From a virus, in the IMG/VR virus record IMGVR_UViG_3300023084_000038, positions 1 through 45,943 of that record: a stretch of 45,943 nucleotides of DNA, one strand, 5' to 3'. The position numbers and the translations under genes are program-made. Position 1 is the first letter of the stretch, and every line of letters starts with the position of its first letter. The notes under the pieces were generated by a model. It saw only the letters and a program-made list of their open reading frames with translations. It had not been told where the DNA came from and made no database searches. This document shows positions 1-42,343 of this stretch, in pieces.

Positions 1-704
1 CCGAAAGCATGCGAATATTTTTTCCATTCGTTGGGTTTAGGCATATCGTAAAACAAGCACGTTTCGGGTAACAACGAATTGTCATCTATTTCTTTTAAAA
101 TTTTCCAAAACTCCATACCAGCGTTAAAATGATTATAAGTATGAGTGTATGGCCATTGGGTTGTTTGATAGAAAAATCTAAACTCTTTTGTAATTTCTTT
201 TATAGCATAATAGGTTTGTATACCGTTTAATATATATTCTTTATCAGATACATTTAATATGTATTGTTTTTGAAATTTAGCATTAGGCCAAGGACCTCCA
301 GCAACAGTCGTTGGGATAAATTCATTAGAATTTTTATCGTACCAAGTATATCGATTTAAACTTGTAAAACCTACAAAAATTATATCATCTTTCTCAATTA
401 TACCAGAATTAATATCTTGCATAATACGATAAAACATGTAAGTATTACTTCCGCCCGGACGGGCTCTATTTATATAAGATTCTAACCCTAAAGAATTTGC
501 AATATATTGAGCATACGATCTTTTAAACATTAAGTCTCGATATTCTTCTTTTTTGTTTATTCTTTCAACATACTTATGATAGAAACCTCGTTCTCCTAGT
601 TTTACTTTTTCCAAATCTGTATCTTTAATTGACATATTAGCAAAGTCGGCATCTGCTAATTCGGAACCATATGTAAAACTACAACCGTATGCAAATAATT
701 TCAT
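1..704 (-). CDS. SGNH/GDSL-hydrolase-like protein, partial (3' end beyond window)
   Basis: The reading frame opens with ATG at 704 and runs without a stop off the left edge, giving 234 residues of an incomplete protein. The N-terminus has the SGNH block I pattern GCSFTYG (residues 7-13, candidate nucleophile Ser9). A block II-like ARPGGSNT follows at about 81-88 and a block III-like stretch VGFTSLNRYTWYD at about 111-123. These are the hallmarks of small phage and bacterial GDSL-like esterases, which often remove or add acyl groups on glycans. The catalytic Asp/His of block V would lie near the C-terminus, outside the window, so activity cannot be judged. Its ATG overlaps the stop of the preceding radical SAM gene by four bases (ATGA), so it belongs to the same operon. 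Substrate unknown; a glycan acyl group is a guess from the glycosyltransferases upstream. Confidence 0.7.
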   Translation of the reverse strand, partial: MKLFAYGCSFTYGSELADADFANMSIKDTDLEKVKLGERGFYHKYVERINKKEEYRDLMFKRSYAQYIANSLGLESYINRARPGGSNTYMFYRIMQDINSGIIEKDDIIFVGFTSLNRYTWYDKNSNEFIPTTVAGGPWPNAKFQKQYILNVSDKEYILNGIQTYYAIKEITKEFRFFYQTTQWPYTHTYNHFNAGMEFWKILKEIDDNSLLPETCLFYDMPKPNEWKKYSHAF

Positions 705-2002
705 TTATCTTCCTTATTATTTTTTTCATGAAATTCTTTAATTTCACAACGCTTATCACTAAATTTTGCCTCGTTCGCTACACTTTCATGAGAAAAAATT
801 CTGTCAATGTCACTATAACGACCACAGGTCATACTACAAAACAAAGTTTTACCTTCTGCTACACTAGGTTTATCCCAAGTGTCTGCAAAAACCCTATCTA
901 AATGTTCTTGTTCTAGAATTTCCTTTAGTGAGTAATTATGAAGGTCGAACTTTTCCCAACCATAATTATTCATATGATTATGCACTTGTAATGTTTCTAA
1001 ACTAGTGTATGTGCTGTTTAAATGGGTAGCTAGATAACAGCAAGGCATTACTATACCACTGCAATCTATAAAAACTTCTTTGTAGATTTTTTGATCTTCT
1101 CTACGGTTTTGGCTTTTACAGAATATTTTGCAAGTATCGTGTGTGCCAAATTCTTTTCCGTGTATTTTTTCTTCGTAGACTGTTCCTACTTGATCTGTAA
1201 AAGTTTTCTTTTTTGCTTTAAGATTTTTCATTTTCCAGTATTCTTCTGGACTAAATTCCCAGCTGGTATATTCCTCTTCACCTATAGGATTTTCTAAATT
1301 CCTATATTCAGGATTTTTTGGTGCATGTATCCAATAATCTAATGTGCCTTTTTTATTCAAAGCACCCATAGCTTTTAGACTTGTACCATTATCTACTCCT
1401 AATGCTTTTTTTGGAATGAAATAAGTAAATCCAATCTTCTTAGCAGTTTTTTTAGCCTTGTGTACTTCATGCTCATTGTGTGCAAATACAAGGAAATCCC
1501 ACGTACTAATATTATTATACTTATTGTACGCTTTAACATTTTGCAGTAGTTTTTCCCAAACAACATTACGCCTATATAAATGATTTGTTCTTTGCAAACC
1601 ATCTATGCTAAACGTAATGTTCCAGCCTTGTTCTTTTTTATTTGCAAATAAATTACCTACTTTGTCCCACCAATCGGGAGTACGCATGCCTCCATTTGTG
1701 TTTACATCAACCTTTGTGTTAGGACTTACTTCAGATATATATTCACATATTTCTAAAAAATCTCTTGCGACACAAGGATCTCCGTGTACTCCACAAAATA
1801 AAACTAACTTACACTTGGTAAGAATATCAGGAGTAAGCCATTTTTTAAATTTATCTAATGTAATTTGTTGTATTTTAAGATCAGGACGAGTAAGAGGACT
1901 GCTATTCATAAAACGAACACACATTGGGCAAGCAGCATTACAACCATTTGTAAGTTCTATATGAAGTTGATCTAATTCTTCAAACTTCCAAAATGCACTC
2001 AT
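701..2002 (-). CDS. Radical SAM protein with C-terminal SPASM-like cysteines
   Basis: This 433-residue protein has the radical SAM iron-sulfur motif CNAACPMC (Cys21, Cys25, Cys28) preceded by ELTNG. The usual GGEP SAM-contact motif is replaced by GVHGDP at about 71-76. After the barrel it has many cysteines (THDTCKIFC, IDCSGIVMPCC, LFCSMTCG), which fits a C-terminal SPASM/twitch domain binding an auxiliary 4Fe-4S cluster. SPASM proteins typically modify peptides or proteins, and some act on carbohydrates. It is the only one of the four neighbouring radical SAM proteins with the auxiliary cysteines at the C-terminus, so it probably belongs to a different subfamily. Its start overlaps the previous gene's stop by four bases and its stop overlaps the next start by four bases, which suggests translational coupling. 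Substrate unknown. Confidence 0.85.
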   Translation of the reverse strand: MSAFWKFEELDQLHIELTNGCNAACPMCVRFMNSSPLTRPDLKIQQITLDKFKKWLTPDILTKCKLVLFCGVHGDPCVARDFLEICEYISEVSPNTKVDVNTNGGMRTPDWWDKVGNLFANKKEQGWNITFSIDGLQRTNHLYRRNVVWEKLLQNVKAYNKYNNISTWDFLVFAHNEHEVHKAKKTAKKIGFTYFIPKKALGVDNGTSLKAMGALNKKGTLDYWIHAPKNPEYRNLENPIGEEEYTSWEFSPEEYWKMKNLKAKKKTFTDQVGTVYEEKIHGKEFGTHDTCKIFCKSQNRREDQKIYKEVFIDCSGIVMPCCYLATHLNSTYTSLETLQVHNHMNNYGWEKFDLHNYSLKEILEQEHLDRVFADTWDKPSVAEGKTLFCSMTCGRYSDIDRIFSHESVANEAKFSDKRCEIKEFHEKNNKEDK

Positions 2003-3219
2003 TTATGCTCCAGTACTTTTTTCAAATTAGGCCATGTGCTTTTTGCATCTTGCTTTCTATATTTGTCGTGTATCTCTAGTTTTGTAATAAATTCGTTCCA
2101 TTCTTTATCATCAGGTGTTCCTTGTTTTATAAAATTTATTATACCTGTAAGATAATGCCATGCTTTTTTGTTGTTTTGAGGAACATTTGTTTCTAAATTT
2201 TTAATTGCTATTTGTTTTGCGTATTCTGGCATAATTGATATATTAAAATATCTAGGATTGTGTACTAAATTTAAATACAACCCTATATGAGAATAATTTT
2301 TATACCAATGATCAATAACATTGTGTAAATCAAAAATATTTGTATTGCTGATAGTTACACACCAGCTTATACTCATATTACCATTTTCATTGTTAAGCTC
2401 AATTGCCTTTTGCATATTTTGCTTTACTAGATCCCATTTTGCAGGATACCGCATATATTCAAATTGATCTTCTGTTCCGTCTATGCTAAAGCTCAAGTTA
2501 ACGCTCCTAAAGTTTTTCCATAATTCAACTTCTTTAGGCCAATGCGTTCCATTTGTATTATAGTGTAGTTCTATATCTTTAGCATAACCGAGAGCGACTG
2601 CTTTTTCCAATAGTTTCCATTGTTTTTTAATCATAAACGGCTCGCCGCCGTAAAAATCAAATTGTTTTATAGTAGGAAGATGACTTTCAATATCTTGCCA
2701 GAAAGGACTGTCATCAGCATAAGTCATATTGTATTTTTTTAAATTGTCGGAAAAATCTTTAAATGACACTCCATCTTGTTTTTTGTATACATTATATTCT
2801 TCTTTGTACCATCCGCTGCTAATAGAGGCTTTGCATGTTCTACATGCAAGATTACATGTATTGCCTAGATTTAATTCTACTTTTGCAAGACCGTTGTATG
2901 GTTCAATTTGTCCTGTTTTTATTTCCCATTCATATCTTTCATTATCTCTTAGTCTTTTAGATTGCCGACCTGCATCTTCTTCTTCCCAACATAATCTGCA
3001 ACCTTCGTGTCTAACACCTTTTGATAGAGCTTTGCGTATTCTTTTAAACTCTTTTTTATGCATAATAGATTCTATGCTATCATTCCCAAGAGTCATATTA
3101 TGTTCTAAAGGGCGGTGCATACAACAAATTTTTGTTGTACCATTATTCATACCGCTCATAGCATGGTATGCATTTACACACCAACTGTGTTTATTTTTAT
3201 CATTTATCATATGATTCAT
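1999..3219 (-). CDS. Radical SAM protein with N-terminal twitch-like domain
   Basis: A 406-residue protein. The N-terminal 90 residues carry Cys14, Cys32/33 and GCRLCW (Cys74, Cys77) followed by an ED/S-R stretch, a pattern shared with the next two upstream genes and consistent with an auxiliary iron-sulfur 'twitch' domain placed before the barrel. The radical SAM motif CNLACRTC is at 122-129 and GGEP at 191-194. It is shorter and more divergent than its two neighbours (no HPP/HH stretch after the second cysteine). The chosen ATG at 3219 has AGGAG only three bases upstream; ATG at 3210 (Met4) is an alternative with a long spacer. The start lies 20 bases inside the upstream radical SAM gene. 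From memory, families of this N-terminal twitch type are annotated in marine phages, but their substrates are not established. Confidence 0.85.
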   Translation of the reverse strand: MNHMINDKNKHSWCVNAYHAMSGMNNGTTKICCMHRPLEHNMTLGNDSIESIMHKKEFKRIRKALSKGVRHEGCRLCWEEEDAGRQSKRLRDNERYEWEIKTGQIEPYNGLAKVELNLGNTCNLACRTCKASISSGWYKEEYNVYKKQDGVSFKDFSDNLKKYNMTYADDSPFWQDIESHLPTIKQFDFYGGEPFMIKKQWKLLEKAVALGYAKDIELHYNTNGTHWPKEVELWKNFRSVNLSFSIDGTEDQFEYMRYPAKWDLVKQNMQKAIELNNENGNMSISWCVTISNTNIFDLHNVIDHWYKNYSHIGLYLNLVHNPRYFNISIMPEYAKQIAIKNLETNVPQNNKKAWHYLTGIINFIKQGTPDDKEWNEFITKLEIHDKYRKQDAKSTWPNLKKVLEHK

Positions 3220-4555
3220 AAACTCCTTTACAGTAGTTATAAAACTCTGTATATTCCGGAAATGTTTCTAATAAGTTAGTGCCCAAACGTTTATCATTTT
3301 CAGTAAAAAAACTATAAAAGTCTCTTTGCCCTTGATGTATTTTTGCAGGATCTACAGGATTTGTCTTCATGTAATTAGTAACACGTTTAAACTTTTCATA
3401 TTCTTGTGGTTTAAATTTATCCATATTATCGTCAATAAACTTTAGTGTATCATCCATATAAGGAATAAAACTTTCCGGTAATATATTAATCATCCAGTGA
3501 GGCGGTTCTTTCAAATATGGTACATCAAAGCGAATAGCATCCATTCCAAATTCTTCTCGCCATTCTATCATCTTATGCATTAAACTTTTATAATTAGTTA
3601 CACATAAAACATTAAATGTACACATTAGACTAACTTCAAATCCTCTGCGCAATGCTTCTTTGAGATTTCTTTCCCAATGTTCTAGTTGTAAGCCTGTACG
3701 CATATATTCTGCTTGTGGTCCCCATGTATCAATACTCGTAAACATTGTAAATTTCTTAATTTTTTTCTGTTCTAAAAGACTTTCTATACGATCATACATA
3801 CGATCCATTTTTGCAGTAGTTACACCTAAGTTACTGTTTATGCTAATATCTAATTGAGGCGCTGGTTCTTTTTCTAATAAATCAAAGAACTGCATGGCAC
3901 CTGGATTCATTAGAGGTTCGCCGCCGGTAATACGTAACGTCCATAAATCTTTTTTAAGGCTTGGCCACCATTTCCAAAACGCTTCTACATAAGGATTGTC
4001 ATCTTTAGGACCATAGTATGTACCGTTCTCTAAAAATTCAATACCATATTGATTGTATGTTAGATCATAATTTCCATGTTTTTTAATTTCGTCCATCCAT
4101 AGTGTACTTGCTTGAGGACAGCAATATCCACAACGATAATTACATCCATTACCAAAAGAGACTTCTAAATAACGAGGATTAATAGGAGCATCCCACGGTA
4201 GTTTTGCTAAGTTTTCAATTTCGTCTACAGCAAAATTACTTGCACTGTGAAACATTCGATCACTCAAATGTTCGCCTTCTAGGTCTTCAATATTCCAACA
4301 GTAATAACACTCGTCTGGTCTTCCTCCTTCAAGCATAGTCTTACGCTGTTGTTTTTTCCATTCTGTATTATGCAATGCACTAGGATCAGCTTCTATTTCC
4401 TTTAATGGAATATGATGAGGTCGAGGATGATAGCAACTATGATTATCTCCTGTGTGCAAATATAGAGTTTGATGCAACCATTTCATTGCGCAAAACCCAG
4501 GTCCTACAGCATTTAGTCTTTTTGCTACTGCATCTACTCTTTCGTCTCTACTCAT
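3200..4555 (-). CDS. Radical SAM protein with N-terminal twitch-like domain (paralogue)
   Basis: This 451-residue protein is clearly a paralogue of the gene just upstream (4548-5960). Both share an N-terminal block with FC..KW, HSCYHP, LHNT..KK..R..ML.G.RP and EC..CW..ED. Here the auxiliary cysteines are Cys22, Cys41, Cys83 and Cys86. The radical SAM motif CNYRCGYC lies at 138-145, with an extra Cys146, and TGGEPLM at 210-216. No C-terminal SPASM cysteine cluster is evident. The start is ATG at 4555, eight bases inside the preceding gene. The two paralogues may work as a pair on one substrate or on successive positions, but the sequence does not show which. Confidence 0.87.
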   Translation of the reverse strand: MSRDERVDAVAKRLNAVGPGFCAMKWLHQTLYLHTGDNHSCYHPRPHHIPLKEIEADPSALHNTEWKKQQRKTMLEGGRPDECYYCWNIEDLEGEHLSDRMFHSASNFAVDEIENLAKLPWDAPINPRYLEVSFGNGCNYRCGYCCPQASTLWMDEIKKHGNYDLTYNQYGIEFLENGTYYGPKDDNPYVEAFWKWWPSLKKDLWTLRITGGEPLMNPGAMQFFDLLEKEPAPQLDISINSNLGVTTAKMDRMYDRIESLLEQKKIKKFTMFTSIDTWGPQAEYMRTGLQLEHWERNLKEALRRGFEVSLMCTFNVLCVTNYKSLMHKMIEWREEFGMDAIRFDVPYLKEPPHWMINILPESFIPYMDDTLKFIDDNMDKFKPQEYEKFKRVTNYMKTNPVDPAKIHQGQRDFYSFFTENDKRLGTNLLETFPEYTEFYNYCKGVYESYDK

Positions 4556-5960
4556 TTAATAACCTACATTTCTCTATAAAGTCTAATAGGGTTGGAAAAG
4601 TTTTTCGTATATCTGTGTTACGCCTAATATCGTGCTGTTTAAAAAATAGATCAAAATTTTTCATCGCACTCACTTCTTCTTGAGTATTTAACGGTTCTTT
4701 TGCCCATTCGTACAGTCGTTTGACTTTATCAATTTCATAATCCTTAAAACCTTTAAACCTGTTATGCACTGTTTCTTTGTTAGATTCCATAAAGTCTATA
4801 CTTTCTAGCAAAGGTTTTAACATTTCAGGTGTAGCAAGTTTCATACTTAACCATTTAGGATCGTGCAGCATAGGAGTATCAAACCAAATTAACTGCCTGT
4901 CGCTATTATAACTTTTCCTAAGTTTTAGTATTTGTTCCATATATTCTAACCAATTAGGCAAACTTAACAAATTTGCAGTTACAATAAATGTTAAACTGTG
5001 TTTTTGCATATTTTGCAAATACGCTGTAATGTTTTTATACAGTAAATTAAAATCCATCCCATTTCGTATATATTCTGCTTGTTTGCCCCAACTATCTAAA
5101 CTACAAAATAACATAAAATGATCCACTGCATCTTGATCTGTTATTTCTTTAAGGCTTGTTAAAAATTTATTCCATTGATCACCTGGCGGACAGCAATTAC
5201 TAGTTATAGACAGCTGTAAATCCTTTTTTGGATTTTGCTTTACATAGTCAAATACACGGAATGTATTTTTATCCATTAGCGGCTCGCCACCTGTCATACG
5301 GAAAGTTTTTAATGTAGGATATACTTCAGGAAAATATTCCCAAAATGCCTGTACATAAGGATTGTTAGGTGCATTGTTTATGCCTAAACTGTCTACCCAA
5401 AGTGGATCATTATGTTTAAATCCATCTAATTCGTATGCTCCAAATTTTTTAACTTCTTTATGCCATTCTGTTGACAAATGAGGGCTGCAATATGCACATT
5501 TTAAATTACATGCTTGATTAAAATTTACTTCTAGATATTTAGGTTTAGGATTTTCATCATTTTGTGCTGCTTCTATAAGTCCAGGTTCGTATACATCAAA
5601 ACTTCTATATGCACGATCGCTTATATTTCCTTGATCTTCTAGTGCCCAGCAAAATTCGCATTCTTTAGGACGGTCTCCTGCAAGCATCTTAGCACGTTGT
5701 TCTTTTTTGTATTGCGTATTGTGTAATGCATCAGGAGTTTCTTGTAATTCTTGAAGAGGTATATTGTGTGCTGGTGGATGATAACAGCTATGCGTTTTAC
5801 CTGTAGGTAAATGTAAACTTACACTATACCATTTAGCCAAACAAAAACTAGGACTAACCTTGTTTAATCCTTGTAGCAAATCCTTACTGCTATCAAAATA
5901 CTTAGAAATATGTGTTTGTTCTAGTATTTTTGTTTCATCACCTTTTATGTTATCAGTCAT
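4548..5960 (-). CDS. Radical SAM protein with N-terminal twitch-like domain (paralogue)
   Basis: A 470-residue protein and the first radical SAM gene of the cassette in transcription order. The N-terminal domain has Cys40, Cys59, Cys101 and Cys104 in the same spacing as its downstream paralogue (HSCYHPPAH, ECEFCW). The radical SAM motif CNLKCAYC is at 151-158 and TGGEPLM at 223-229. The pattern of N-terminal auxiliary cysteines followed by the barrel is what is known as the N-terminal twitch radical SAM type. The ATG overlaps the stop of the GT2-like gene by four bases (ATGA at 5960-5957), linking the radical SAM genes to the glycosyltransferases in one coupled operon. Function beyond S-adenosylmethionine radical chemistry is not predictable. 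Confidence 0.87.
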   Translation of the reverse strand: MTDNIKGDETKILEQTHISKYFDSSKDLLQGLNKVSPSFCLAKWYSVSLHLPTGKTHSCYHPPAHNIPLQELQETPDALHNTQYKKEQRAKMLAGDRPKECEFCWALEDQGNISDRAYRSFDVYEPGLIEAAQNDENPKPKYLEVNFNQACNLKCAYCSPHLSTEWHKEVKKFGAYELDGFKHNDPLWVDSLGINNAPNNPYVQAFWEYFPEVYPTLKTFRMTGGEPLMDKNTFRVFDYVKQNPKKDLQLSITSNCCPPGDQWNKFLTSLKEITDQDAVDHFMLFCSLDSWGKQAEYIRNGMDFNLLYKNITAYLQNMQKHSLTFIVTANLLSLPNWLEYMEQILKLRKSYNSDRQLIWFDTPMLHDPKWLSMKLATPEMLKPLLESIDFMESNKETVHNRFKGFKDYEIDKVKRLYEWAKEPLNTQEEVSAMKNFDLFFKQHDIRRNTDIRKTFPTLLDFIEKCRLLNE

Positions 5961-6877
5961 TCTGGATCGATCACAAACTTATTCCTGCGTTTACGAGTAG
6001 GAGTTTGATAAACTGTTTTAAAAAACTGGCTTTGTCTTGGTAATAACGGATTAGGATCAATAGGAATATTCAATTCGCTGATAAGATCATTGCCTAATGC
6101 TTGTATTTGTATTAACAATCCATCTTCTTTTTGTTTTTCATGTTGCCACATCTCGTTAAGATATTCGAAATCACGCACATTAACATAATCCCAATCTGTA
6201 CACATTGTCATATACAGTCCTTGTCTTGCACCGTATATTGCCCATAACCCGTTTTCTACATCAGAACCTATCATAGTCCATACAAATAACATATGCAAGT
6301 TTTTCCAATGACCGTTAAGGAATTGTTCTTTAGTAGGTTTAACACCTCTGTCTAGTGCCATTTTAACGCCTTCGCGAAAACCAGCTCGCCAGGCCTGCTG
6401 CGGAGTAGCATTATTGTATACATCGCTATAACAACTAGTCATTTGTATATAATTGTTGTCCCAGCAAAAATCAACTTGGTTTGTTCCATCTCCTGCATCT
6501 GCATTCTCATGTGTACGCATGTTTAACACATATTCTTTAGGCCAACATTTTAATCCGCCATTGCCGTACATTAATCCGTTAATAATATTTTGTCCGCACC
6601 AACTGATAACACTATTTTCTAGATCAGTATGTTCTTCAAAATCTATTTCTTGTTGTAAAAAATTAGGATCTACAATATTGTCGCCATCAACAGTGATAAA
6701 GCGATCTGTTTCACTTAACTCTGCACAGGCCTTGTGCGCAGCATCTGAGCCTTTTACACCGTGTACACGTTTAGCCCAAGGCACTTTACTACATAAATCT
6801 GCATAGTTCTTTTCTGCATTTGGTTCGTCATATGACAAATAGACTATATCATAATCAATAACTTTAAATTTTTTCAT
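5957..6877 (-). CDS. GT2-like (GT-A fold) glycosyltransferase
   Basis: A 306-residue protein. The N-terminal half reads like a GT-A nucleotide-sugar binding fold: an early strand (DIVYLSYDEPN, about 10-20), a central SDAAHKAC stretch, and the metal-binding DxD in FITVDGDNIVD (Asp64, Asp66). After the DxD the protein is less familiar, and it lacks the clear C-terminal features of large family 2 enzymes. No transmembrane segment or signal peptide is visible, so it should act in the host cytoplasm. One base separates it from the preceding gene, and it overlaps the first radical SAM gene by four bases. It may transfer a sugar to a virion protein or a host glycan; donor and acceptor are unknown. 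The GT-A call is stronger than the family number. Confidence 0.7.
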   Translation of the reverse strand: MKKFKVIDYDIVYLSYDEPNAEKNYADLCSKVPWAKRVHGVKGSDAAHKACAELSETDRFITVDGDNIVDPNFLQQEIDFEEHTDLENSVISWCGQNIINGLMYGNGGLKCWPKEYVLNMRTHENADAGDGTNQVDFCWDNNYIQMTSCYSDVYNNATPQQAWRAGFREGVKMALDRGVKPTKEQFLNGHWKNLHMLFVWTMIGSDVENGLWAIYGARQGLYMTMCTDWDYVNVRDFEYLNEMWQHEKQKEDGLLIQIQALGNDLISELNIPIDPNPLLPRQSQFFKTVYQTPTRKRRNKFVIDPE

Positions 6878-6878
6878 T

Positions 6879-7454
6879 TTATCTCACTATGTGTAAATAT
6901 TCTTCATCGACCCGAGAACAAATCAAGCTAATATCAGATCTTTTAGCAATATCTTTATTATATACTTTAACATCATATTCGTTGTTTGTCAATAAGTCTT
7001 TAAATTCTATATAGAAACTATCCAGTAACAAAGTAGGATCGTCTTCCTTTATAACAAAAATTTGCTTTTTTTGATTTGCATAACCAGAAGTTTGGCTGTA
7101 ATAAATTAAATGCTTGTCATCTAATGTTGTAGTTATATTCCATTTGCTATTTTTTGTATCCTGCGTTATTAAAAAAGCATTCTCTGTTGCTTGTAATACT
7201 TTTTTAATCTGTTTTATACTTTTGTCAGGATCAAATTCTTTTTCTTCTTGCACCTTTTTTACTAGCTGTGTAACTTCTTCATTCTTCGGACTAGAAAATA
7301 CGCCCCATTCATGAAATTTATAAATCCCATCACTAAATTTATTATAAGTTTCGAAGTCAGTATCTATATAGTTTTCACCAAGAGACTGATTTAGTTCGTT
7401 TGTTAAGCCACGTATACTTCCAGTATCTTTATCATAGTAAATGTAAAAACTCAT
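6879..7454 (-). CDS. Hypothetical cassette protein, 191 residues
   Basis: I do not recognise this protein. It is acidic and lysine-rich, starts MSFYIYYDKDTGSIRGLTN, and looks soluble, with no signal peptide, membrane segment or cysteine motif. The opening resembles short beta-hairpin starts of some phage proteins that begin by describing a value or parameter, but this is too weak for a call. A predicted helical stretch around residues 58-90 (NEEVTQLVKKVQEEK...) could form a coiled coil. The ATG overlaps the stop of the GT8-like gene by four bases, and its own stop is one base before the GT2-like start, so it is embedded in the cassette. It could be a partner or protein substrate of the enzymes around it; this is inference from position only. 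Confidence 0.7.
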   Translation of the reverse strand: MSFYIYYDKDTGSIRGLTNELNQSLGENYIDTDFETYNKFSDGIYKFHEWGVFSSPKNEEVTQLVKKVQEEKEFDPDKSIKQIKKVLQATENAFLITQDTKNSKWNITTTLDDKHLIYYSQTSGYANQKKQIFVIKEDDPTLLLDSFYIEFKDLLTNNEYDVKVYNKDIAKRSDISLICSRVDEEYLHIVR

Positions 7455-8281
7455 TTTTGTATCCTGCTTATAACTTTGTCTGTTAAAAAGTCATCTTCTA
7501 CATAATGTAACACGCCTGTTTGACTAAAATTACCAATCATAAGTCTAGCATTTTCATCCATATAACAGTCTAATGCATAAGTCCATTTTTCAGGTATATG
7601 TTTCCAGTTTTGTAATCTAGGTTTCATATGCACAAATGAAATTGGACTATTTTTATCAGTTATTTCATCTGTAATGCCTAACATTTTAGATGCTAGTGCG
7701 CAACTTACATCTACACTACACCATTTTTGATAATCAACAGGTGCAAATTTACCGTAAAAATATTCCCAATTAATCATAACCAGTTCTAGTAAAATAAAAA
7801 ACTGTTTTGCAAAATCGCCTTTTTTGAAATAATAAAACGCACTATACAAATCGGGTAAATTATTAGAATCAAAAACTTTACGATAATACCTACTAGAAGC
7901 AAGCTCGCCTCTGTATGTTTTTACATTTGTAGTAAAAAATAATTCTCGTTTTTCTAAATAATTCCACCAATGTTCTATATTTTGTAATACTAACATGTCT
8001 GCATCCATTACTATTGTATGATCGTAAGGACTTGCATGGTATACTTTCCATCTGTTCTCTATTTTCCAATCTGTATTGTTTGCTTGATCTGTCCATGGTA
8101 TAGAAATAATATTATCAAAAACAGACAGGTATTCGTCTGGCACATTATCGTTTGTTATGAGTGTAACCTTTTGATTAGAATTAAATTTATGGATACTGCA
8201 TGCAAGAGAATATGCTTGTCTTACATAATCAGTTTTATTGTTATTTTGTGCAAGAATGCAAAAACCTTTAGAGTTGCTCAT
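7451..8281 (-). CDS. GT8-like glycosyltransferase, copy 2
   Basis: A 276-residue protein with a GT-A-type start (GFCILAQNNNKTDYVRQA) and the DxD motif in HTIVMDADMLVL (Asp94 and Asp96 counting from the upstream TTG). It resembles the GT8/nucleotide-diphospho-sugar transferase type and is a clear relative of the next gene upstream: both begin with a short strand followed by AQNN, a YV(R/K)QA helix, and M-D-x-D after a strand. I place the start at ATG 8281; the open frame extends one codon further to TTG at 8284, but AGGA lies six bases before the ATG. It overlaps the upstream gene's stop by 14 bases. No membrane segment is seen. Sugar and acceptor unknown. Confidence 0.72.
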   Translation of the reverse strand: MSNSKGFCILAQNNNKTDYVRQAYSLACSIHKFNSNQKVTLITNDNVPDEYLSVFDNIISIPWTDQANNTDWKIENRWKVYHASPYDHTIVMDADMLVLQNIEHWWNYLEKRELFFTTNVKTYRGELASSRYYRKVFDSNNLPDLYSAFYYFKKGDFAKQFFILLELVMINWEYFYGKFAPVDYQKWCSVDVSCALASKMLGITDEITDKNSPISFVHMKPRLQNWKHIPEKWTYALDCYMDENARLMIGNFSQTGVLHYVEDDFLTDKVISRIQK

Positions 8282-9107
8282 CAATAATCCTGTTCAAACT
8301 AAATTTGTTCATTACATGCACATTAAGTTGTGATACACTTGCAGCATGATATTCCCAATCTTTTTCTAACAAAAAAGTAAATTTATCATCTTTTATATCT
8401 ATTAAAATGTCTCTATCTAATGTATGCCATAAATTTCCTGGCATGTTTAAGGGCCAGTTTGTTTTTTTAAATCCATTAATAATATGTATTGCTATACTAA
8501 ATGCAAAATCATTTCTAAACTTTTTCTCTATGATCTTATAAGTAAGTCTATAAAAACTCCAATTATCTCTAATATGTTTTATTAAATCAAATAGAAGTTT
8601 AGTATTATCTGTTTTTTCAAAATAAAACAAAGTAGCCCAATACATATCTATGCTTCTATCGCTTATGCGTTTTAATTCTGAGATATATCTATTTGTCTTA
8701 ATATCTATAGATTCTTTTGCAATTAAAAATTCTTGGTTGTAGTCAAACGCTTTTAATAATGTGTTGTTACCTATAATTAGATCTGTATCCATTACTATAG
8801 TTTTAGCAAATGGTGTTACATCCCATGCATCTGCCCTGCTAAGATTTCGCCATTCTAGTGTTTTTTCGCTATATAACCCGTCTCTAAACTTTTTCCTATA
8901 ATTAACAGGATGTCTCTGTAATTCGACTATTTCGTCAAAATAGACTTTATAGTTTTTATAATTTTGTTTTAGGTATTCTAAATTATCAGTTGCCAAACAA
9001 ACAGGTAACTGTAGATATTTTTTAATACGACTGGCACAAAATTGAGCTTGCTTAACATAATCTATATGGCTATTATTTTGTGCAAATAATAAAACACCTT
9101 GCGTCAT
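8268..9107 (-). CDS. GT8-like glycosyltransferase, copy 1
   Basis: A 279-residue paralogue of the following gene. It starts MTQGVLLFAQNNSHIDYVKQA and has the putative metal-binding DxD in KTIVMDTDLIIG (Asp107, Asp109). The two copies keep the N-terminal third and the DxD region but diverge toward the C-terminus, as expected for enzymes with the same donor type and different acceptors. The start ATG at 9107 overlaps the stop of the 115-residue protein by four bases (ATGA). It is the first recognisable enzyme of the cassette behind the promoter at 9475-9503. No signal peptide or membrane segment. The family assignment rests on fold-level pattern and the DxD; another GT-A family is possible. Confidence 0.72.
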   Translation of the reverse strand: MTQGVLLFAQNNSHIDYVKQAQFCASRIKKYLQLPVCLATDNLEYLKQNYKNYKVYFDEIVELQRHPVNYRKKFRDGLYSEKTLEWRNLSRADAWDVTPFAKTIVMDTDLIIGNNTLLKAFDYNQEFLIAKESIDIKTNRYISELKRISDRSIDMYWATLFYFEKTDNTKLLFDLIKHIRDNWSFYRLTYKIIEKKFRNDFAFSIAIHIINGFKKTNWPLNMPGNLWHTLDRDILIDIKDDKFTFLLEKDWEYHAASVSQLNVHVMNKFSLNRIIDEQL

Positions 9108-9451
9108 AGATTAATTAAACCTTCAACTGATCTGTTTTTCTTTATATTATTATATTCTGTTAGATAATTATTTGCTGCTTCAAAATATGTGCTGTATAGA
9201 TCTATACTAAATTGTTCTAGATCTTCAATCTGTACAGGAATTTCATTATCATCAATTAATACTGTGCTGGTTTGATTTAAAGAAATTAGTCCTTGCACAA
9301 ATGCTACTAACTCTCTAGTAACACTAAATTTACCACCATTATAGTAATGGATAGATTGTTCTTTAAATTTTTCTTGGATCAAACTACGCTGGTTGTTCAA
9401 CGTAATCATATAATTGGAAAAATCAAGTGCTTTTTTTAAACGTTCGTCCAT
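9104..9451 (-). CDS. Hypothetical protein, first gene of the cassette, 115 residues
   Basis: I do not recognise this protein. It is mostly helical in appearance (ERLKKALDFSNYMITLNNQ..., later FSIDLYSTYFEAANNYL), with a short beta-like middle (TVLIDDNEIPVQIED). It has no cysteines and no membrane segment. The ATG at 9451 is preceded by AGGAG at 9458-9462 with a spacing of six, and lies 24 bases downstream of a sigma70-type -10 box. As the leader gene of an operon of glycosyltransferases and radical SAM enzymes it could be a small scaffold, a regulator or a substrate protein. It is not an obvious RiPP precursor: there is no Gly-Gly leader boundary or Cys/Ser-rich core. Confidence 0.75.
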   Translation of the reverse strand: MDERLKKALDFSNYMITLNNQRSLIQEKFKEQSIHYYNGGKFSVTRELVAFVQGLISLNQTSTVLIDDNEIPVQIEDLEQFSIDLYSTYFEAANNYLTEYNNIKKNRSVEGLINL

Positions 9452-9457
9452 AAGAAA

Positions 9458-9503
9458 CTCCTATAATTATAGTTATTGTACTACAATTATAAAAGTTTGT
9501 CAA
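9458..9503 (-). promoter_or_regulatory. Sigma70-type promoter and ribosome binding site of the accessory cassette
   Basis: On the minus strand a perfect -35 TTGACA (9503-9498) is followed, after exactly 17 bases, by TACAAT (9480-9475). AGGAG lies at 9462-9458, six bases before the ATG at 9451. This fits host sigma70-type early promoters. No TATAAATA-like late motif is visible here, unlike the fibre genes upstream. The promoter sits in the 56-base gap after the 312-residue structural gene. No hairpin-plus-U-run terminator separates the two, so late read-through is also possible. Confidence 0.75.
9461..9472. repeat. Perfect 12-bp palindrome at the predicted start of cassette transcription
   Basis: CTATAATTATAG reads identically on both strands and sits immediately downstream of the -10 box, across the expected +1 and the edge of the ribosome binding site. 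It could be a repressor operator or a fortuitous AT-rich palindrome; such sequences are not rare in AT-rich DNA. Confidence 0.4.
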
Positions 9504-9507
9504 GTGA

Positions 9508-10446
9508 TTATGAGAACTGATTTCCTGCTGCAAATGCAATTGTGGGTGCCGGCACGCTAACATTTGCTCCTGACGGTTGTTTTATTGTGATTGTACTAGT
9601 TGTAGCACCATTAACATTTTCGTCTTCTGCTGGGCCTAAAGGTGGTGTGCCAGGTCGTTGGTCGCCGGCATCGTCATCACGCAATTCTACTCTAAACTCT
9701 AGTTGAGCACCGGAGTTTGCCCTAACGTATATTAAAATATCGTTTTCAGCATAAGGACTTGTTCCAGGCTCAGTTGCAACTTGCACCCAAGTAGTTCCAC
9801 TAGAAACGATATCATAATAGCCGTTTGCATTTGTATCTGCATCAGCAGCTGACAAAGTTTGTTTGTAGCCAAATTTAATAGTATTGATAGCAGCCATCAT
9901 AGCTTGCCAGTCTAGTGTTTTTTGTTCTGATCCAGTATATGTCATTACTAAATCTATACGTACTTCGCCGCCAGCATTAAAGAACGCTTTTGCTTCTGTA
10001 GCACTAGAAAAACTTGCAGTAAATTGATGAGTTCTTACACCGTTCCACCCGGCAGCAAGCGTAGCAGTTTGTCCTGCAACTAAACTAAATTGTCCGGCAG
10101 CAACAGTATATCTATTAGGGTCTCCACTAATTGTTGTTACAAGAGCTTCATATTGATTGTATTCTGTTGCACCAATAGTAGTAGATGTTGTAACGTTTGT
10201 TATTGTAGGAGCAGTACCAAATTGGTGTGTATAACACTTTGTAATATCAGATCGTAAATTATCCCATTGAGCTTCTGTAATGGAATTGCCTACTGAAACT
10301 TGGGCGCTTGATACCGCTTGATTGTAACCAGTAGCTGTAGTATCAGTGCTTCCTGCAGGTGATCCTAAAATTGAAGCTACGCTGCTTTGTAACGTATTAT
10401 AATCTAATTCTGTAATTTTATCGCCTGCAGATTTTGCCATGCTCAA
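9508..10446 (-). CDS. Virion structural / fibre-associated protein, 312 residues
   Basis: This protein begins MSMAKSAGDKITELDYNTLQ and has two related N-terminal segments (KITELDYNTLQSSVASILG and SITEAQWDNLRSDITKC), an internal duplication of a helical motif. The middle and C-terminal parts are Thr/Ser/Gly-rich beta-type sequence, ending in a Pro/Gly-rich linker (PGTPPLGPAEDEN) and a short beta tail. This composition is typical of phage fibre or decoration proteins of marine T4-like phages; I cannot assign a T4 gene. It is the last gene of the fibre block and has its own exact late promoter (TATAAATA, 10483-10476) and ribosome binding site (AGGAG). It might be a fibre tip, an adaptor or a capsid decoration protein. 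Confidence 0.7.
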   Translation of the reverse strand: MSMAKSAGDKITELDYNTLQSSVASILGSPAGSTDTTATGYNQAVSSAQVSVGNSITEAQWDNLRSDITKCYTHQFGTAPTITNVTTSTTIGATEYNQYEALVTTISGDPNRYTVAAGQFSLVAGQTATLAAGWNGVRTHQFTASFSSATEAKAFFNAGGEVRIDLVMTYTGSEQKTLDWQAMMAAINTIKFGYKQTLSAADADTNANGYYDIVSSGTTWVQVATEPGTSPYAENDILIYVRANSGAQLEFRVELRDDDAGDQRPGTPPLGPAEDENVNGATTSTITIKQPSGANVSVPAPTIAFAAGNQFS

Positions 10447-10475: not shown

Positions 10476-10483
10476 TATTTATA
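10476..10483 (-). promoter_or_regulatory. T4-type late promoter, exact TATAAATA
   Basis: The minus strand reads TATAAATACTAC, an exact match to the T4 late consensus, 30 bases before the ATG at 10446. It overlaps the stop codon of the upstream fibre gene. AGGAG follows close to the start codon. Confidence 0.8.
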
Positions 10484-11984
10484 CTTTTAAAACACATTCA
10501 ATTAATTTTTCTGATTCTTCAGTGCTCGATTCTAGTGCAATACCAACAAGTCCGCTAGTCATTACAGTTGTACAAATCCCGTCTTCCCAAGCATAAACTG
10601 CATCACCTTTATTGACTGCTCCTTTAACTCTTACAGGAACACGACCTTTTAAACCAATTGCTTGTCCTTCACATTCGCTGTTCATTAAGTAAGCAGGCTC
10701 TGCAGATATGACTCCGATGCACATTGTGCTAGATTTTGCAGCAGTAGTTTCAGCATCACCGCCTACACACATTGCTGTACCAATTGGATATTCTTGATCT
10801 GTTGTATATTTTTCTGCCAAGTCAGCATATCTTGCGCTTGTTGCTGTACCTTGGAACAGTACAGCATTTAAATTACCACTAGCATCTCTAATTGCAACAG
10901 TGTTACCCGATCCTACACCTGCACTATCAACAGCAGGAGATCTTGCTATTCCACTAACAACAATAGAATTTGCTTGGGTTGCTGTGCCTGTAAATGTTGT
11001 TGCATAAACATTTGTAAATGGACTTCCTGAAGCACCAAGTGTTACACTTTCTACTCCAGTATCAGCTGCATTTCTACCAGGCAATACCTGTCCTGGATTA
11101 AGTTCTATCACGTTTGTGGCAACACCGCTAGAACGTAATCTCCATTTTAATTTTGTACCTACATCATTTGCAATTACACCTTCGTTGTCGTTTTCAATAA
11201 ACAACTTTAGATCTAATCCATTACCTATAGCAATACCTGCATCATTACGGAAGTTCACAACTTCAGTAAACTCAGTAGTACCAGTTCCTGTTACTACATA
11301 GTTTGCTGCATCAATACCGCCTAATTTAAGTGCATTGGATGCTGTGCCCCAATATCTTTCTGTTCCACTTGTTACGCCGCCAGTTGCATTGGTTGTATTC
11401 TTTAAAGTAACACCTTTTCTAACAACGTCAAATCCAGCTATGGCATTTTCAGCGTCTGAGCTATCTATTGTAAATTCTGCGCCGCTAATTATAAAAACTA
11501 CTTCATCATTAATAGTAGCAGCAATAATACTTCTAGCATTGGAAGGGGTTAAATTATCTCTTACAGTACGGCTTTGCATTTGTGTAACACCGTCACCGGC
11601 ATCTTGGGGTCCTACTAGTATAAAATCTGCGCCATTGTAAGCATATAATTGTTCGTTAGCTGTATCCCACCAAAAATCGCCTTCGGCTAATCCTGCTGGT
11701 TGAGAAGATGCAATTTCTGCACCCCCTGTGGTACGCCATTTTGTTCCGTCGAAAAATTTTAATTTTGAGTTTCCACTATCAAACCAAACCTGTCCACTTA
11801 TTGCTTTGGGCGGTTGATTAGATCCTGCAAAATTTTCTAATAAAAATACAAAGTTTTCGTTTTGTATTTCACCGTATCCGGCATAATTTTTACCAACCAA
11901 TTTTAAATCAGTGGTTTGATCAATTGTGCCGTCTTCTACAACAGTAAGTGTTGCGTTGTTATATCTATTAATCGTATATGCCAT
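10479..11984 (-). CDS. Tail fibre protein with C-terminal AEKY-type domain, 501 residues
   Basis: The first ~120 residues carry the module shared with the two fibre proteins upstream: LVGKNY.GYGE..NENFV.LLENFA, then PP.A..GQVWFD...KLKFFDGT.WR, then a second QPA.L.EGDFWWDT...LY.Y repeat. This module probably attaches each fibre to the baseplate or to the giant protein. The middle is beta-rich with TGT/GNG turns typical of trimeric fibres. The C-terminal ~110 residues start at ADLAEKY (about 388) and contain GTAMCVGG, CIGVIS and a GRVPVRVKGAVNKGD stretch; I have seen this type of domain at the ends of phage fibre proteins and would expect it to be a tip or folding domain. A degenerate late promoter lies 25 bases before the ATG. 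Confidence 0.8.
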   Translation of the reverse strand: MAYTINRYNNATLTVVEDGTIDQTTDLKLVGKNYAGYGEIQNENFVFLLENFAGSNQPPKAISGQVWFDSGNSKLKFFDGTKWRTTGGAEIASSQPAGLAEGDFWWDTANEQLYAYNGADFILVGPQDAGDGVTQMQSRTVRDNLTPSNARSIIAATINDEVVFIISGAEFTIDSSDAENAIAGFDVVRKGVTLKNTTNATGGVTSGTERYWGTASNALKLGGIDAANYVVTGTGTTEFTEVVNFRNDAGIAIGNGLDLKLFIENDNEGVIANDVGTKLKWRLRSSGVATNVIELNPGQVLPGRNAADTGVESVTLGASGSPFTNVYATTFTGTATQANSIVVSGIARSPAVDSAGVGSGNTVAIRDASGNLNAVLFQGTATSARYADLAEKYTTDQEYPIGTAMCVGGDAETTAAKSSTMCIGVISAEPAYLMNSECEGQAIGLKGRVPVRVKGAVNKGDAVYAWEDGICTTVMTSGLVGIALESSTEESEKLIECVLKV

Positions 11985-12008
11985 GTTTATTAAACCCCTT
12001 GCGTACTG

Positions 12009-12016
12009 TATTTAGC
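12009..12016 (-). promoter_or_regulatory. Late-type promoter motif GCTAAATA
   Basis: The minus strand reads GCTAAATACAG 25 bases before the ATG at 11984. Position and the TAAATA core agree with the exact late promoter downstream at 10476. The first two bases differ from the T4 consensus. Confidence 0.6.
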
Positions 12017-12019
12017 GTA

Positions 12020-13954
12020 TTACGGATAATTAGCTGTTCCCGTGTGTACCCACGCACCACTTTGCACTTCAAATGTCATAGTGTATCTATCTGGTACAAG
12101 TGTAACTGCTCCAGACGTAGTGTTAGCAGCAGCAATATCTGATACAACACTTTCTGATCCTACATCATTAGCGTTTCCTGCAGGCTGCACTGTTGCAGCA
12201 TTTGTATAAGACTTCATAAGTGTTCCAGAACTATCTGGATCTGTTGTAACTGTTACAGGAATTCCTGTAACTGTAGCACCTGTATATGAAGTACAATGTA
12301 CTTTTGCAATACTGCCGTTCTGAGGAGTGCCAACTGGTGCAATACTTGTTAAGATTGCTTTTACATCATCCAATGGTCCTTGCCCTGTACCGGGAGGATT
12401 TGGATTGCTTAACCCTGTAATGTCAAGGCTAAAGTTTGTTGGTATTGTTGCAACAAGATTATCAACATATGCTTTAGTAGTTGCATCATCTGCTGCTGTT
12501 GGTGTATCTACTCCGTTTAGTCTTACCCCACTAAATGTTATAGTACCGCCAGTGTCTATGTTCATTGCACCGCTATTAACAATATTACCTGTTAGCGTCA
12601 AATCATTTAAAATACTTAGACTAGTCAACGTTCCTATTTGTGTCAATCCTAGAGCCGATGTAACAGTTGTTCCTATTCTAGTTTTTGTTAAAATAGTTGT
12701 GTCATCAATTCTATATTCTTTACCTGCTCGTAAATTAAAGTGTTGGTTAGATGTCCATGAAGAAGTTGCTTGTATCCAATGTAAGTCTTTAGACCCGTTA
12801 GTAGATCTCAAAGTGATGCCGCCGCCGTCCGCATTTGTATCATCACCTTCTGTACTATCGTCTAATAAACCAAGTTCTATATTAGGATCTTCTACACGTA
12901 ATGTAGAAACATTAAAATAGGATGAGTCACCTTTTACTGTTAAATCACCGTCTATTATAACATTACTTGTAAAATGTCCTGTTCCTGTGACATCAAGAGT
13001 GTAACTAGGAGTACTGTTAAAAATACCTACTTTAGATTCGCTAGTGTCAATAAGAATTGCATCAATCTGATCACTGCCTTTTCTTACTCTTAAAGCCAGA
13101 TCATAATTGGTTTGTACAGTTTCTATTGCACTTTTTGTGGTTCCAGAAATAACTTTGAAATGTGCATAGTCTGTACTACCTACACCAATCTTTACTCCAC
13201 TCGATCCTTTTACAAATAAATTGCCTATCATCGACTGTTCAATAGCATTTAATGAATCGTCTCTTTCGTTAGTTCTGACAAAGTCCACAGAAGAAAATGT
13301 GTTACCCTGAGTATCTACAAGATTTTCTGCATTCGTAGCAGTTCCATGATATTTAAAATCATCTGTGTACACAGGATTAAAACCTATTTTAACAGCTCGA
13401 CCTACTTCATATGGAGCAATAACATATGAGCTTGCAGGTGTAAATTCCTGTCTGCTATATATGCCGGCTAAAACTCCACCTATGTATTTCATTATAACAA
13501 TTCTAGCCTGGCCTGAAGTATCTACCATTGTATATGCTTCTAACCCAGTTTTACCTTGTCCTGAAGTATAACTAGGTCCAACTTCTGTCCAAGCAGTCCC
13601 ATCATACATATGGAATTTTCGATTATTATTGTCGATCCAAAGATCTCCTTCGACAGGATTGGCAGGTCTGTCAGGTGCTACAATTGGACCGCCTGCTATT
13701 CTAAATGTAGTACCGTTGTAAAGTTTTAATCTATTATCACTAGTATCATACCAAAGTTGGCCTTTTAAAGGATTAGCAGGAGCACTTGTTGCAGCAAAGT
13801 TTTCAAGTAGTGCTACAAAATTTTCATTAAATGCTTCACCGTAACCTTTGTAATTTTTTCCTACTAGACTTAAATCAGTTGTAGCAGTGTCAATTATACC
13901 ATCTACAAGTTCTACTAAAAGCGATCCGTCTGTTTTGTTTATTCTATAACTCAT
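12020..13954 (-). CDS. Tail fibre protein, 644 residues
   Basis: It shares the N-terminal attachment module (LVGKNYKGYGEAFNENFV, GQLWYDTSDNRLKLYNGT, then EGDLWIDNNNRKFHMYDGT) with its neighbours. The centre (about residues 250-490) is a fibre shaft of beta repeats, including IDGDLTVKGDSSYFNVS and a GGGITLRSTNGSKDLHW segment, followed by TAADDATTKAYVDNLV, a motif common just before the ends of phage fibre shafts. The C-terminal ~130 residues are a Thr/Val/Gly-rich beta domain with no recognisable enzyme or binding family; this is the part expected to vary with host receptor. The ATG overlaps the upstream stop by four bases (13954-13951), so it is translationally coupled to the collar-domain fibre. 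Confidence 0.82.
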   Translation of the reverse strand: MSYRINKTDGSLLVELVDGIIDTATTDLSLVGKNYKGYGEAFNENFVALLENFAATSAPANPLKGQLWYDTSDNRLKLYNGTTFRIAGGPIVAPDRPANPVEGDLWIDNNNRKFHMYDGTAWTEVGPSYTSGQGKTGLEAYTMVDTSGQARIVIMKYIGGVLAGIYSRQEFTPASSYVIAPYEVGRAVKIGFNPVYTDDFKYHGTATNAENLVDTQGNTFSSVDFVRTNERDDSLNAIEQSMIGNLFVKGSSGVKIGVGSTDYAHFKVISGTTKSAIETVQTNYDLALRVRKGSDQIDAILIDTSESKVGIFNSTPSYTLDVTGTGHFTSNVIIDGDLTVKGDSSYFNVSTLRVEDPNIELGLLDDSTEGDDTNADGGGITLRSTNGSKDLHWIQATSSWTSNQHFNLRAGKEYRIDDTTILTKTRIGTTVTSALGLTQIGTLTSLSILNDLTLTGNIVNSGAMNIDTGGTITFSGVRLNGVDTPTAADDATTKAYVDNLVATIPTNFSLDITGLSNPNPPGTGQGPLDDVKAILTSIAPVGTPQNGSIAKVHCTSYTGATVTGIPVTVTTDPDSSGTLMKSYTNAATVQPAGNANDVGSESVVSDIAAANTTSGAVTLVPDRYTMTFEVQSGAWVHTGTANYP

Positions 13955-16072: not shown

Positions 16073-16687
16073 TTATCCCTCGTTAAATCCAGTTAAACTT
16101 TGTACTCTTACTGTATAATCAATCTGTATTAATCTATTAAGAGACTTTTGTACAGGATGGAAAATTACATGTGTTAAAAGCCTGCCATCTCCAGTTGGAG
16201 AATATGCTTTTAAACCTAACTCATCAAATACATACAAACTATTTGCATCTGTTGCTGTATCAAATGCATCCTGTCCGTTAGGTTCTCCATAATCTAACAA
16301 ACAAGTTATAAACGAATCTGTATAATTTGTACCACTTACATGACGAGTCTCAATTTTATTTCTAGCAGGATCTAAGTTGTTTATTGATCTATCGTCAACT
16401 ACTTTTGTAAAGGTTTGGTTGTAAAGACTTGCATTTGTACCTGTGCTATTAGGTGTTAGATATGTTATGATTCCTGTAGGATCAACACTTGTTCCCCCAT
16501 TACCAAATGCCATTTCATAAATCCAACCTTGTCCTTCATTGCCCAAACTTTCTGCAAGTGAAATACTCATGTTTTCATAATGAATAGCATTACGTTTGTC
16601 AATGATTACTTTACCAGTATCAGGCTCATGGATTTTGATGTGACCTTGTATTAGTAACCCTGTTTTTTCATTAATTTTGTCTGTCAT
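16073..16687 (-). CDS. Conserved-type baseplate/structural protein at the gp8 position, 204 residues
   Basis: The sequence includes LLIQGHIKIHEPDTGKVIIDKRNAIHYENMS near the N-terminus, a block I associate with structural proteins of marine T4-like phages, and a beta-rich C-terminus (LLTHVIFHPVQKSLNRLIQIDYTVRV). It lies directly after the giant gene and before the fibres, where T4 has genes 8-11, so a wedge or fibre-connector role is plausible. It is much shorter than T4 gp8 (334 residues), and I see no convincing alignment by eye, so I give no symbol. Transcription probably begins at the late promoter 20 bases before its ATG. Confidence 0.72.
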   Translation of the reverse strand: MTDKINEKTGLLIQGHIKIHEPDTGKVIIDKRNAIHYENMSISLAESLGNEGQGWIYEMAFGNGGTSVDPTGIITYLTPNSTGTNASLYNQTFTKVVDDRSINNLDPARNKIETRHVSGTNYTDSFITCLLDYGEPNGQDAFDTATDANSLYVFDELGLKAYSPTGDGRLLTHVIFHPVQKSLNRLIQIDYTVRVQSLTGFNEG

Positions 16688-16706: not shown

Positions 16707-16714
16707 TATTTATC
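16707..16714 (-). promoter_or_regulatory. T4-type late promoter GATAAATA
   Basis: The minus strand reads GATAAATACACTAG 20 bases before the ATG at 16687, one mismatch from TATAAATA. It overlaps the stop codon of the giant gene and would start a separate transcript for the 204-residue protein and the fibre genes. Confidence 0.75.
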
Positions 16715-41506: not shown

Positions 41507-42343
41507 ATGAGAAAATTAAATTACCTAAACAACAAAGATATTTTAAAAGAAATACATAAATCTAAAAGTACATTTTGTAGCTATGTAGACCCCGACTATG
41601 CTCAATTTGATATAATTTTACCTAGTATAGAAAAAATTAATATTAGGACAATTGCAGAGGCAAAGCGTAACAAAGCAAAGCGTTTACAACAAGAAGATTT
41701 TGAACAACGAAAATCTGCAGGTGAAAAAGTTAAACTTATAGAGTGTGAAATAGATTATAGAAAGATTACTAAAGAAGAACTAATTTTTCGTATTATGATG
41801 TTTGATCATATACCAGAAGAACCTGGACGTAAAAAGAATCCAAAAACAATTGCAGATACAAAAGTTAAGTTAAATTTTCCACCGTTTCAACATTTTAAAT
41901 TTGACGACGATGGTAACTTACAATGTGTAGGTAAAAGTCACTGGCAAGGCGGTATGGAAAACGGATTTTTTAGTTTAGATCACGGAAGGGCAACTAATAA
42001 ACTTGCAATGATGTGGATGAAACTTGTAGACAGATATGCTACAAGAGGCAATGTAAGAGGATATACATATAATGACGAAATGAAAGGACAAGCAATACTG
42101 CAACTTTCACAGATTGGTTTGCAATTTGATGAAAGCAAATCTAATAACCCGTTTGCATACTACACAGCCGCTGTCACTAACTCATTTGTACGTGTTATCA
42201 ATATTGAAAAACGCAATCAAAACATCAGAGATGATATACTCGAACAAAACGGATTAAATCCTAGCTATACAAGACAACATGCCGGAGAATGGGAAGCTTC
42301 TCAAAAAAGAGAGGCAGAAATGTCAAAAAAATCAGTTGACTAG
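41507..42343 (+). CDS. 55: Late-transcription sigma factor gp55
   Basis: A 278-residue protein with the phage T4 late sigma features: a central segment GYTYNDEMKGQAILQLSQIGLQFDESKSNNPFAYYTAAVTNSFVRVINIEKRN corresponds to the sigma region-2-like part that reads the late promoter, and the end (DDILEQNGLNPSYTRQ) fits the family. T4 gp55 is 185 residues; here about 90 extra residues lie mainly before the core (TIAEAKRNKAKRLQQEDF..., FPPFQHFKFDDDGN). In T4, gp55 works with gp33 and the sliding clamp gp45; neither is in this window. Its predicted targets, TAAATA-core promoters, lie on the opposite strand nearby. It starts at ATG 41507 behind a consensus promoter. Confidence 0.92.
   Translation: MRKLNYLNNKDILKEIHKSKSTFCSYVDPDYAQFDIILPSIEKINIRTIAEAKRNKAKRLQQEDFEQRKSAGEKVKLIECEIDYRKITKEELIFRIMMFDHIPEEPGRKKNPKTIADTKVKLNFPPFQHFKFDDDGNLQCVGKSHWQGGMENGFFSLDHGRATNKLAMMWMKLVDRYATRGNVRGYTYNDEMKGQAILQLSQIGLQFDESKSNNPFAYYTAAVTNSFVRVINIEKRNQNIRDDILEQNGLNPSYTRQHAGEWEASQKREAEMSKKSVD

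Follow-up and report, generated by a model that had tools for sequence, protein, structure and literature searches.

What is the run of closely packed minus-strand genes that follows the fibre genes in the viral record IMGVR_UViG_3300023084_000038, and does it form a unit of its own? The DNA analysed here, in the following termed the window, is the whole stretch from position 1 to 45,943 of this IMG/VR record. From 9451 down to the contig end, packed open reading frames (ORFs) make up ten genes, nine complete and one partial, which encode the small protein p115, two glycosyltransferases (GT279 and GT277), the proteins p191 and GT306, four radical S-adenosylmethionine (SAM) proteins (rSAM_A to rSAM_D) and an SGNH-like protein. 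Our analysis suggests that marine jumbo T4-like phages carry a large, hypervariable island for glycan tailoring, that this cassette contains its fixed head, and that the island most likely acts on sugars of the host envelope, a reading to which we assign a probability of about 0.45. That the product is a glycan, be it on the host or on the virion, is likely, since both the transferases and a radical SAM gene are conserved.

The conservation of the head is most evident from gene order. For p204 (a structural-region gene outside the cassette), p115 and GT306, at least several hundred relatives are present in IMG/VR; counts of relatives refer here to distinct ones. Among about 150 such marine relatives, the order of fibre genes, p115, two transferase genes, p191, GT306 and a radical SAM gene is nearly invariant: p115 is followed by GT279 in 139 of 139 cases, GT279 by GT277 in 150 of 150, GT277 by p191 in 148 of 149, p191 by GT306 in 145 of 145, and GT306 by a radical SAM gene of the N_Twi type in 110 of 122. 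Similarly, when p204 served as anchor, p115 and GT279 were present in 46 of the 52 contigs that extend 9 kb or more downstream. Among the six exceptions, L108 has the transferases with p115 not called, L050, L051, L055 and L079 carry additional fibre genes which shift the place of the cassette beyond range (L079 recurs as the same contig, L257, in the GT306-anchored set), and L095 shows a different arrangement. The first-pass annotation of this DNA had expected the cassette to be kept together in marine relatives rather than scattered, which is borne out for the first six genes, the later ones being variable. A tblastn search of 50,697 INPHARED phage records with p115, GT306 and rSAM_A returned no match, for GT306 even at E 10; this result is oddly empty and is hence treated with caution.

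A second feature shared by most relatives is a host-type promoter in front of p115. In the window, TTGACA-17-TACAAT at 9503..9475 matches 11/12 positions, the highest promoter score within 16.8 kb. Upstream of p115, 103 of 139 distinct regions scored 11-12/12, as opposed to none of 601 control regions located upstream of p204, two fibre genes, GT279 and GT277 (Fisher p about 1e-95, relatedness not corrected for). After thinning to 105 p115 clusters, 76 remained at 11-12/12, a score that Markov shuffles reached in 3 of 2100 cases. Among the clusters scoring below 10, TAAATA occurs near the start in 16 of 19, compared to 5 of 86 of the others (Fisher p 5e-12), and on the p115 tree about four changes are needed between the host-type and TAAATA states, where TAAATA has one main clade. 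TAAATA replaces the host-type promoter before p115 in L010, L013, L053, L054, L059, L063, L064, L073, L075, L078, L213, L221, L245 and L247, and further in L081, L248, L080, L086 and L090, which together amount to one main clade plus a few isolated cases. Within the window, TAAATA-type motifs precede fib312, fib501, p204 and the gene for a gp6-like baseplate wedge protein and precede no cassette gene, in agreement with the earlier proposal of a host-type promoter for the cassette and TAAATA-type late promoters for the fibres. The gene for a late sigma factor (41507-42343) stands behind a 12/12 TTGACA-17-TATAAT promoter. A subset of relatives shows apparent promoters before GT306; these fall within the coding sequence of p191 and were not counted. 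Since the host-type promoter occurs in most relatives and TAAATA in some, and since in the window TAAATA marks fibre and structural genes and the sigma factor gene has a host-type promoter, control of the operon is probably early or middle in the majority of lineages, and late in some. For the cassette of the window, early expression is what we infer, from the promoter alone.

In gene order, the cassette junctions are overlaps of 4, 17 and 4 nt, a 1-nt gap, and overlaps of 4, 8, 20, 4 and 4 nt, as would be expected for a translationally coupled operon, given that neighbours overlap by 4-20 nt or stand 1 nt apart. The close packing noted at first reading was thus confirmed by measurement. In contrast, the number of nine genes was too low, the 191-residue ORF at 6879-7454 seemingly having been left uncounted, and the boundary of such a unit is an artefact of the contig end: the island extends past the window, which covers only its initial 9.5 kb; it has not ended at position 1 and continues for 30-43 kb in relatives. 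The fixed unit is p115-GT279-GT277-p191-GT306-rSAM_A, while rSAM_B, rSAM_C, rSAM_D and the SGNH-like gene are part of a variable tail. The positions of all features are compiled in Table 1.

Table 1. Features of the cassette and of the adjoining fibre region in the window.
Feature	Position	Strand	Basis
Sigma70-type promoter TTGACA-17-TACAAT before p115	9475..9503	-	11/12 match
p115, first core gene, no family match	9104..9451	-	GT279 next in 139/139 relatives
GT279, GT8-like glycosyltransferase, DTD motif, core	8268..9107	-	profile and motif
GT277, GT8-like paralogue, DAD motif, core; ATG at 8281	7451..8284	-	profile and motif
p191, core; fast-evolving, confident predicted fold with C-terminal beta-sandwich	6879..7454	-	weak PDB matches only
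GT306, most conserved core gene; DGDN motif; N-terminal half with predicted GT-A-like fold	5957..6877	-	model
rSAM_A, N_Twi radical SAM, sixth core gene	4548..5960	-	NF033640 310 bits
rSAM_B, N_Twi radical SAM nested in core-rSAM clade	3200..4555	-	NF033640 311 bits and tree
rSAM_C, N_Twi radical SAM, variable part	1999..3219	-	NF033640 315 bits and tree
rSAM_D, SPASM-type radical SAM, not N_Twi, variable part	701..2002	-	PF04055 35.8 bits; SPASM sub-threshold
SGNH/GDSL-like protein, cut by contig end, variable part	3..704	-	GCSFTYG motif
F4, fibre-region gene directly upstream of cassette; two TAAATA motifs before it	9508..10446	-	
F3, F2 and F1, three fibre genes	10479..16068	-	context
p204, conserved gene of the structural region; unbiased anchor	16073..16687	-	

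The assignment of four radical SAM proteins stands, as each contains one CxxxCxxC motif and has Pfam or NCBIfam support. rSAM_A, rSAM_B and rSAM_C (310, 311 and 315 bits) score above the curated cut-off of 170 for the NCBIfam family N_Twi_rSAM (NF033640), whereas rSAM_D remains below it at 45.7 bits and is classed as a radical SAM protein with a sub-threshold SPASM domain. The PF04055 cut-off is passed by three of the four; rSAM_A reaches only 22.5 bits against the required 29.5, yet has its high score to NF033640. In a phylogenetic tree, the radical SAM protein encoded directly 3' of GT306 falls into one strongly supported clade of 28 rows, and the label 'first' needs three changes. rSAM_B is nested within this clade and is a probable duplicate, and rSAM_C represents a separate deep lineage.

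GT277 and GT279 are paralogues in which both aspartates of the DxD motif are invariant in 14 sequences. Neither has a Pfam match, including GT8 (PF01501), although a relative of GT277 in L008 passes the PF11051 cut-off, and their joint profile matches glycogenin at E 5e-7. Of three proposed GT-A-like transferases, these two are therefore supported, while the case for GT306 is weaker, being derived from the fold: in a model with a predicted local distance difference test (pLDDT) score of 65, residues 3-155 align to IspD-type and GT-A chains (Z 7-9), so that its N-terminal half resembles a nucleotide-sugar transferase, a fold that does not separate transferases from nucleotidyltransferases. GT306 belongs to a family that has no name, and a profile search of the PDB with it gave no match. 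At 69-84% identity across phages, GT306 is about as conserved as p204. For p115 and p191 no characterised family was matched, and PHROG scans gave only scattered single-member matches. The p191 model (pLDDT 92) predicts a C-terminal beta-sandwich with only weak structural neighbours; structural realignment yielded beta-sandwich domains only (Z about 4), matches in a viral library were uncharacterised phage proteins, and TRAP1/Hsp90 hits from Foldseek against the PDB (template modelling score about 0.13) were rejected as chance. The protein at the contig end carries the GCS motif on which its SGNH-like label was based (GCSFTYG); no profile matched the fragment, and the GDSL matches of full-length relatives from the islands were all sub-threshold, which leaves this label a weak call.

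Downstream of the six-gene head, gene content varies between phages. The far border is marked by a convergent gene that encodes an Mtd_N domain; four islands extend to it, span 30-43 kb and contain 22, 11, 12 and 10 ORFs with CxxxCxxC; in the densest relative the motif occurs in 22 of the 44 ORFs of at least 80 residues. To our knowledge, the tail is among the densest radical SAM gene arrays of any phage. Sugar genes of the islands include those for UDP-glucose dehydrogenase, PfkB with a cytidylyltransferase (PfkB-CTP_transf), epimerases and a heptosyltransferase-like GT9, and tailoring genes encode aminotransferase, GNAT, sulfotransferase, 2-oxoglutarate (2OG) oxygenases, halogenase, carbamoyltransferase, AMP-binding enzymes (AMP-ligases), nitroreductase and B12-binding radical SAM proteins. 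Two islands encode a QueC-like protein, both matches being weak. Hydropathy analysis of the islands detected no Wzx/Wzy-like polytopic proteins and no dedicated exporter, only TctA and a fatty-acid desaturase. The TctA transporter gene occurs in two islands (L025 11011-13480, L028 13785-16243) with an adjacent gene resembling that of its TctC binding protein. A tryptophan-halogenase-like gene (L025 7571-8644) in the G003 island adjoins a short AMP-binding gene (8813-9493).

How might such an island function? It may be envisaged that host RNA polymerase transcribes the operon before, or independently of, the late fibre transcript, that soluble transferases build or lengthen a saccharide in the cytoplasm, and that radical SAM proteins together with the oxygenase, halogenase and carbamoyl enzymes alter its sugars or amino-acid substituents. 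As no Wzx/Wzy-like proteins were found, the acceptor is probably accessible from the cytoplasm, such as the lipopolysaccharide (LPS) core on the inner membrane, a phage protein or a small molecule. The likeliest candidate would be a glycan of the host envelope that is synthesised on the cytoplasmic side of the inner membrane, i.e. the LPS core, with the outcome that competing phages would no longer be bound by infected cells. This target is favoured by the LPS-type precursor genes, by the GT8/GT9-type transferases and by a radical SAM cluster of Vibrio phage K566 located near genes for PagP and an LpxC-like protein. A dedicated glycan pathway with its own host-type promoter beside the fibres, as first proposed, is well supported, unlike its extent as nine genes. 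Several points weigh against the host envelope as the target. The acceptor, product and timing assumed here are deduced rather than observed, as is the host-surface role of the precedents; GT306 shows a higher identity than one would expect if the enzyme acted on variable host LPS; TAAATA takes the place of the host-type promoter in a clade and, sporadically, in a few other phages; late read-through from the fibre genes is possible, since no terminator was seen between F4 and p115; and the PagP and LpxC neighbours in K566 may be unrelated to its radical SAM cluster.

The same data lend weight to the virion as the target. The core operon might build a conserved glycan on the fibres of the phage or on another virion protein, which the variable tail of radical SAM proteins and transferases would decorate in each phage. 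The high conservation of GT306, about equal to that of p204, the invariable seat of the cassette right after the fibres and the fast evolution of p191 with its predicted C-terminal beta-sandwich all favour this explanation, as do the exchange of the host-type promoter for a late-type motif and the syntenic radical SAM operons after a fibre gene in the cultured phages Phosso and Atu_ph07, which lack recognised transferases. However, most relatives have a host-type and not a late promoter, the LPS-type precursor genes, TctA and AMP-ligases are hard to account for by fibres alone, and the radical SAM proteins of Phosso and Atu_ph07 mostly belong to other subfamilies. We therefore regard a virion target as quite possible and prefer the host envelope. 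Rather unlikely, in our view, is the more specific version in which the fixed operon starts a conserved fibre glycan that is varied by up to about 20 swappable radical SAM and tailoring enzymes, with early expression in the majority of lineages and a switch to late control elsewhere.

Products other than glycans fit the locus less well. Twitch-domain radical SAM proteins might crosslink or epimerise a ribosomal peptide or virion protein, with sugars added later; N_Twi and SPASM domains are common in peptide maturases, the Phosso and Atu_ph07 radical SAM genes are interleaved with genes for uncharacterised proteins, and the NCBIfam scan gave weak matches. As the window radical SAM proteins stayed below the equivalog maturase cut-offs in that scan, and as the window cassette, with its largest gap of 1 nt, has no space for a separate precursor gene, we consider such a role very unlikely. 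Even more improbable is a DNA hypermodification pathway. Phage transferases can glycosylate DNA and the QueC-like proteins would suit this function, but the fibre-side location, the extreme variability and the sugar- and lipid-type tailoring genes fit it badly. Less remote than these two, if still unlikely, is the production of a diffusible modified amino-acid or sugar compound (a toxin, siderophore or signal), one option put forward by Iyer et al. for a cluster of cyanophage S-SSM6a (PMC7824862). Halogenase, carbamoyltransferase, AMP-binding, 2OG oxygenase, nitroreductase and GNAT genes in some islands are in line with it; however, these tailoring genes lie outside the core, the core is always associated with glycosyltransferases and located beside fibres, and hydropathy revealed no dedicated exporter.

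The window phage belongs to the T4 superfamily, as indicated by genes for a gp6-like baseplate wedge protein, a late sigma factor and SbcC/SbcD-like proteins and by a 5081-residue ORF. The latter is located at 16710-31955 on the minus strand; ORFs of this region are present in relatives as well, and the corresponding place in Phosso and Atu_ph07 is occupied by a giant structural gene. The nearest cultured matches of p204 are in Sinorhizobium phage Phosso (469 kb) and Agrobacterium phage Atu_ph07 (490 kb), and the sequence data assign the cassette to a widespread, uncultured lineage of large marine phages (jumbo T4-like). Two contigs of 335 and 153 kb (L274 and L275) from a metagenome-assembled genome (MAG) of Neomarinimicrobiota display the order of fibres and core, and because this is a phage arrangement they probably derive from phages and ended up in a bacterial bin. 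A bacterial source of the cassette was considered and rejected, as these contigs themselves look like phage and N_Twi was found at E 1e-40 in only 2 of 149 genomes of that phylum.

The notion that no characterised phage operon has this set of parts proved too strong, since pelagimyophages (PMC7029224) and cyanophages (PMC7824862) possess comparable islands, for which a change of the host surface has been proposed. The host recognition clusters of pelagimyophages and cyanomyophages are hypervariable, tens of kb long and located in the structural region, with fibres, glycosyltransferases, rfaE, UDP-glucose dehydrogenase and radical SAM cassettes (PMC7029224). The islands described here likewise combine fibres, transferases and sugar genes in a hypervariable structural-region island; they differ by a fixed six-gene head, a conserved promoter, many more radical SAM genes and another phage lineage. 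The borders of the host recognition cluster are VrlC and gp14, for which no search was made here, whereas the right border of the present islands is the convergent Mtd_N gene. Cyanophages P-SSM2 and S-SSM6a carry LPS clusters and halogenase/carbamoyltransferase clusters (PMC7824862), which share with our islands epimerase, PfkB, nucleotidyltransferase and transferases and, in one relative (G003), halogenase, carbamoyltransferase and 2OG oxygenases. Radical SAM proteins, by contrast, dominate here, and the term 'radical SAM' is absent from PMC7824862. Cyanophage ACG-2014f has a distant GT8 relative after its fibre genes, but the neighbours are not p115 and p191, and it was rejected as a carrier; for moraphages with conserved transferases (PMC12619734) no tie to this lineage was established.

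The islands also point towards cultured phages with related radical SAM operons. The jumbo phage K566 (L276 10072-22858) combines N_Twi-type radical SAM proteins with two GT8 genes, as here, except that its cluster lies among hypothetical genes near those for PagP and the LpxC-like protein, both lipid A enzymes, and no other core families were found in the stretch examined. Phosso (L287 22620-30769) and Atu_ph07 (L288 23424-31073) have a radical SAM operon at a like place, following the giant structural gene, the p204 homologue and a fibre gene; in contrast to the present cassette, its radical SAM genes are interleaved with those for uncharacterised proteins and belong mostly to other subfamilies, and recognised transferases or core proteins are lacking. 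Phosso has, in addition, a convergent gene resembling one beyond the far island border in the marine phages. The separable head, the conserved promoter and the radical SAM array make it directly testable whether phages tailor the surface sugars of their host or their own fibres. While this kind of island is already known, phage host-recognition and LPS islands had been seen only as variable mixtures, and what is new here is an orthologous six-gene head that can be separated from the variable tail, the dichotomy of promoters and the scale of the radical SAM expansion.

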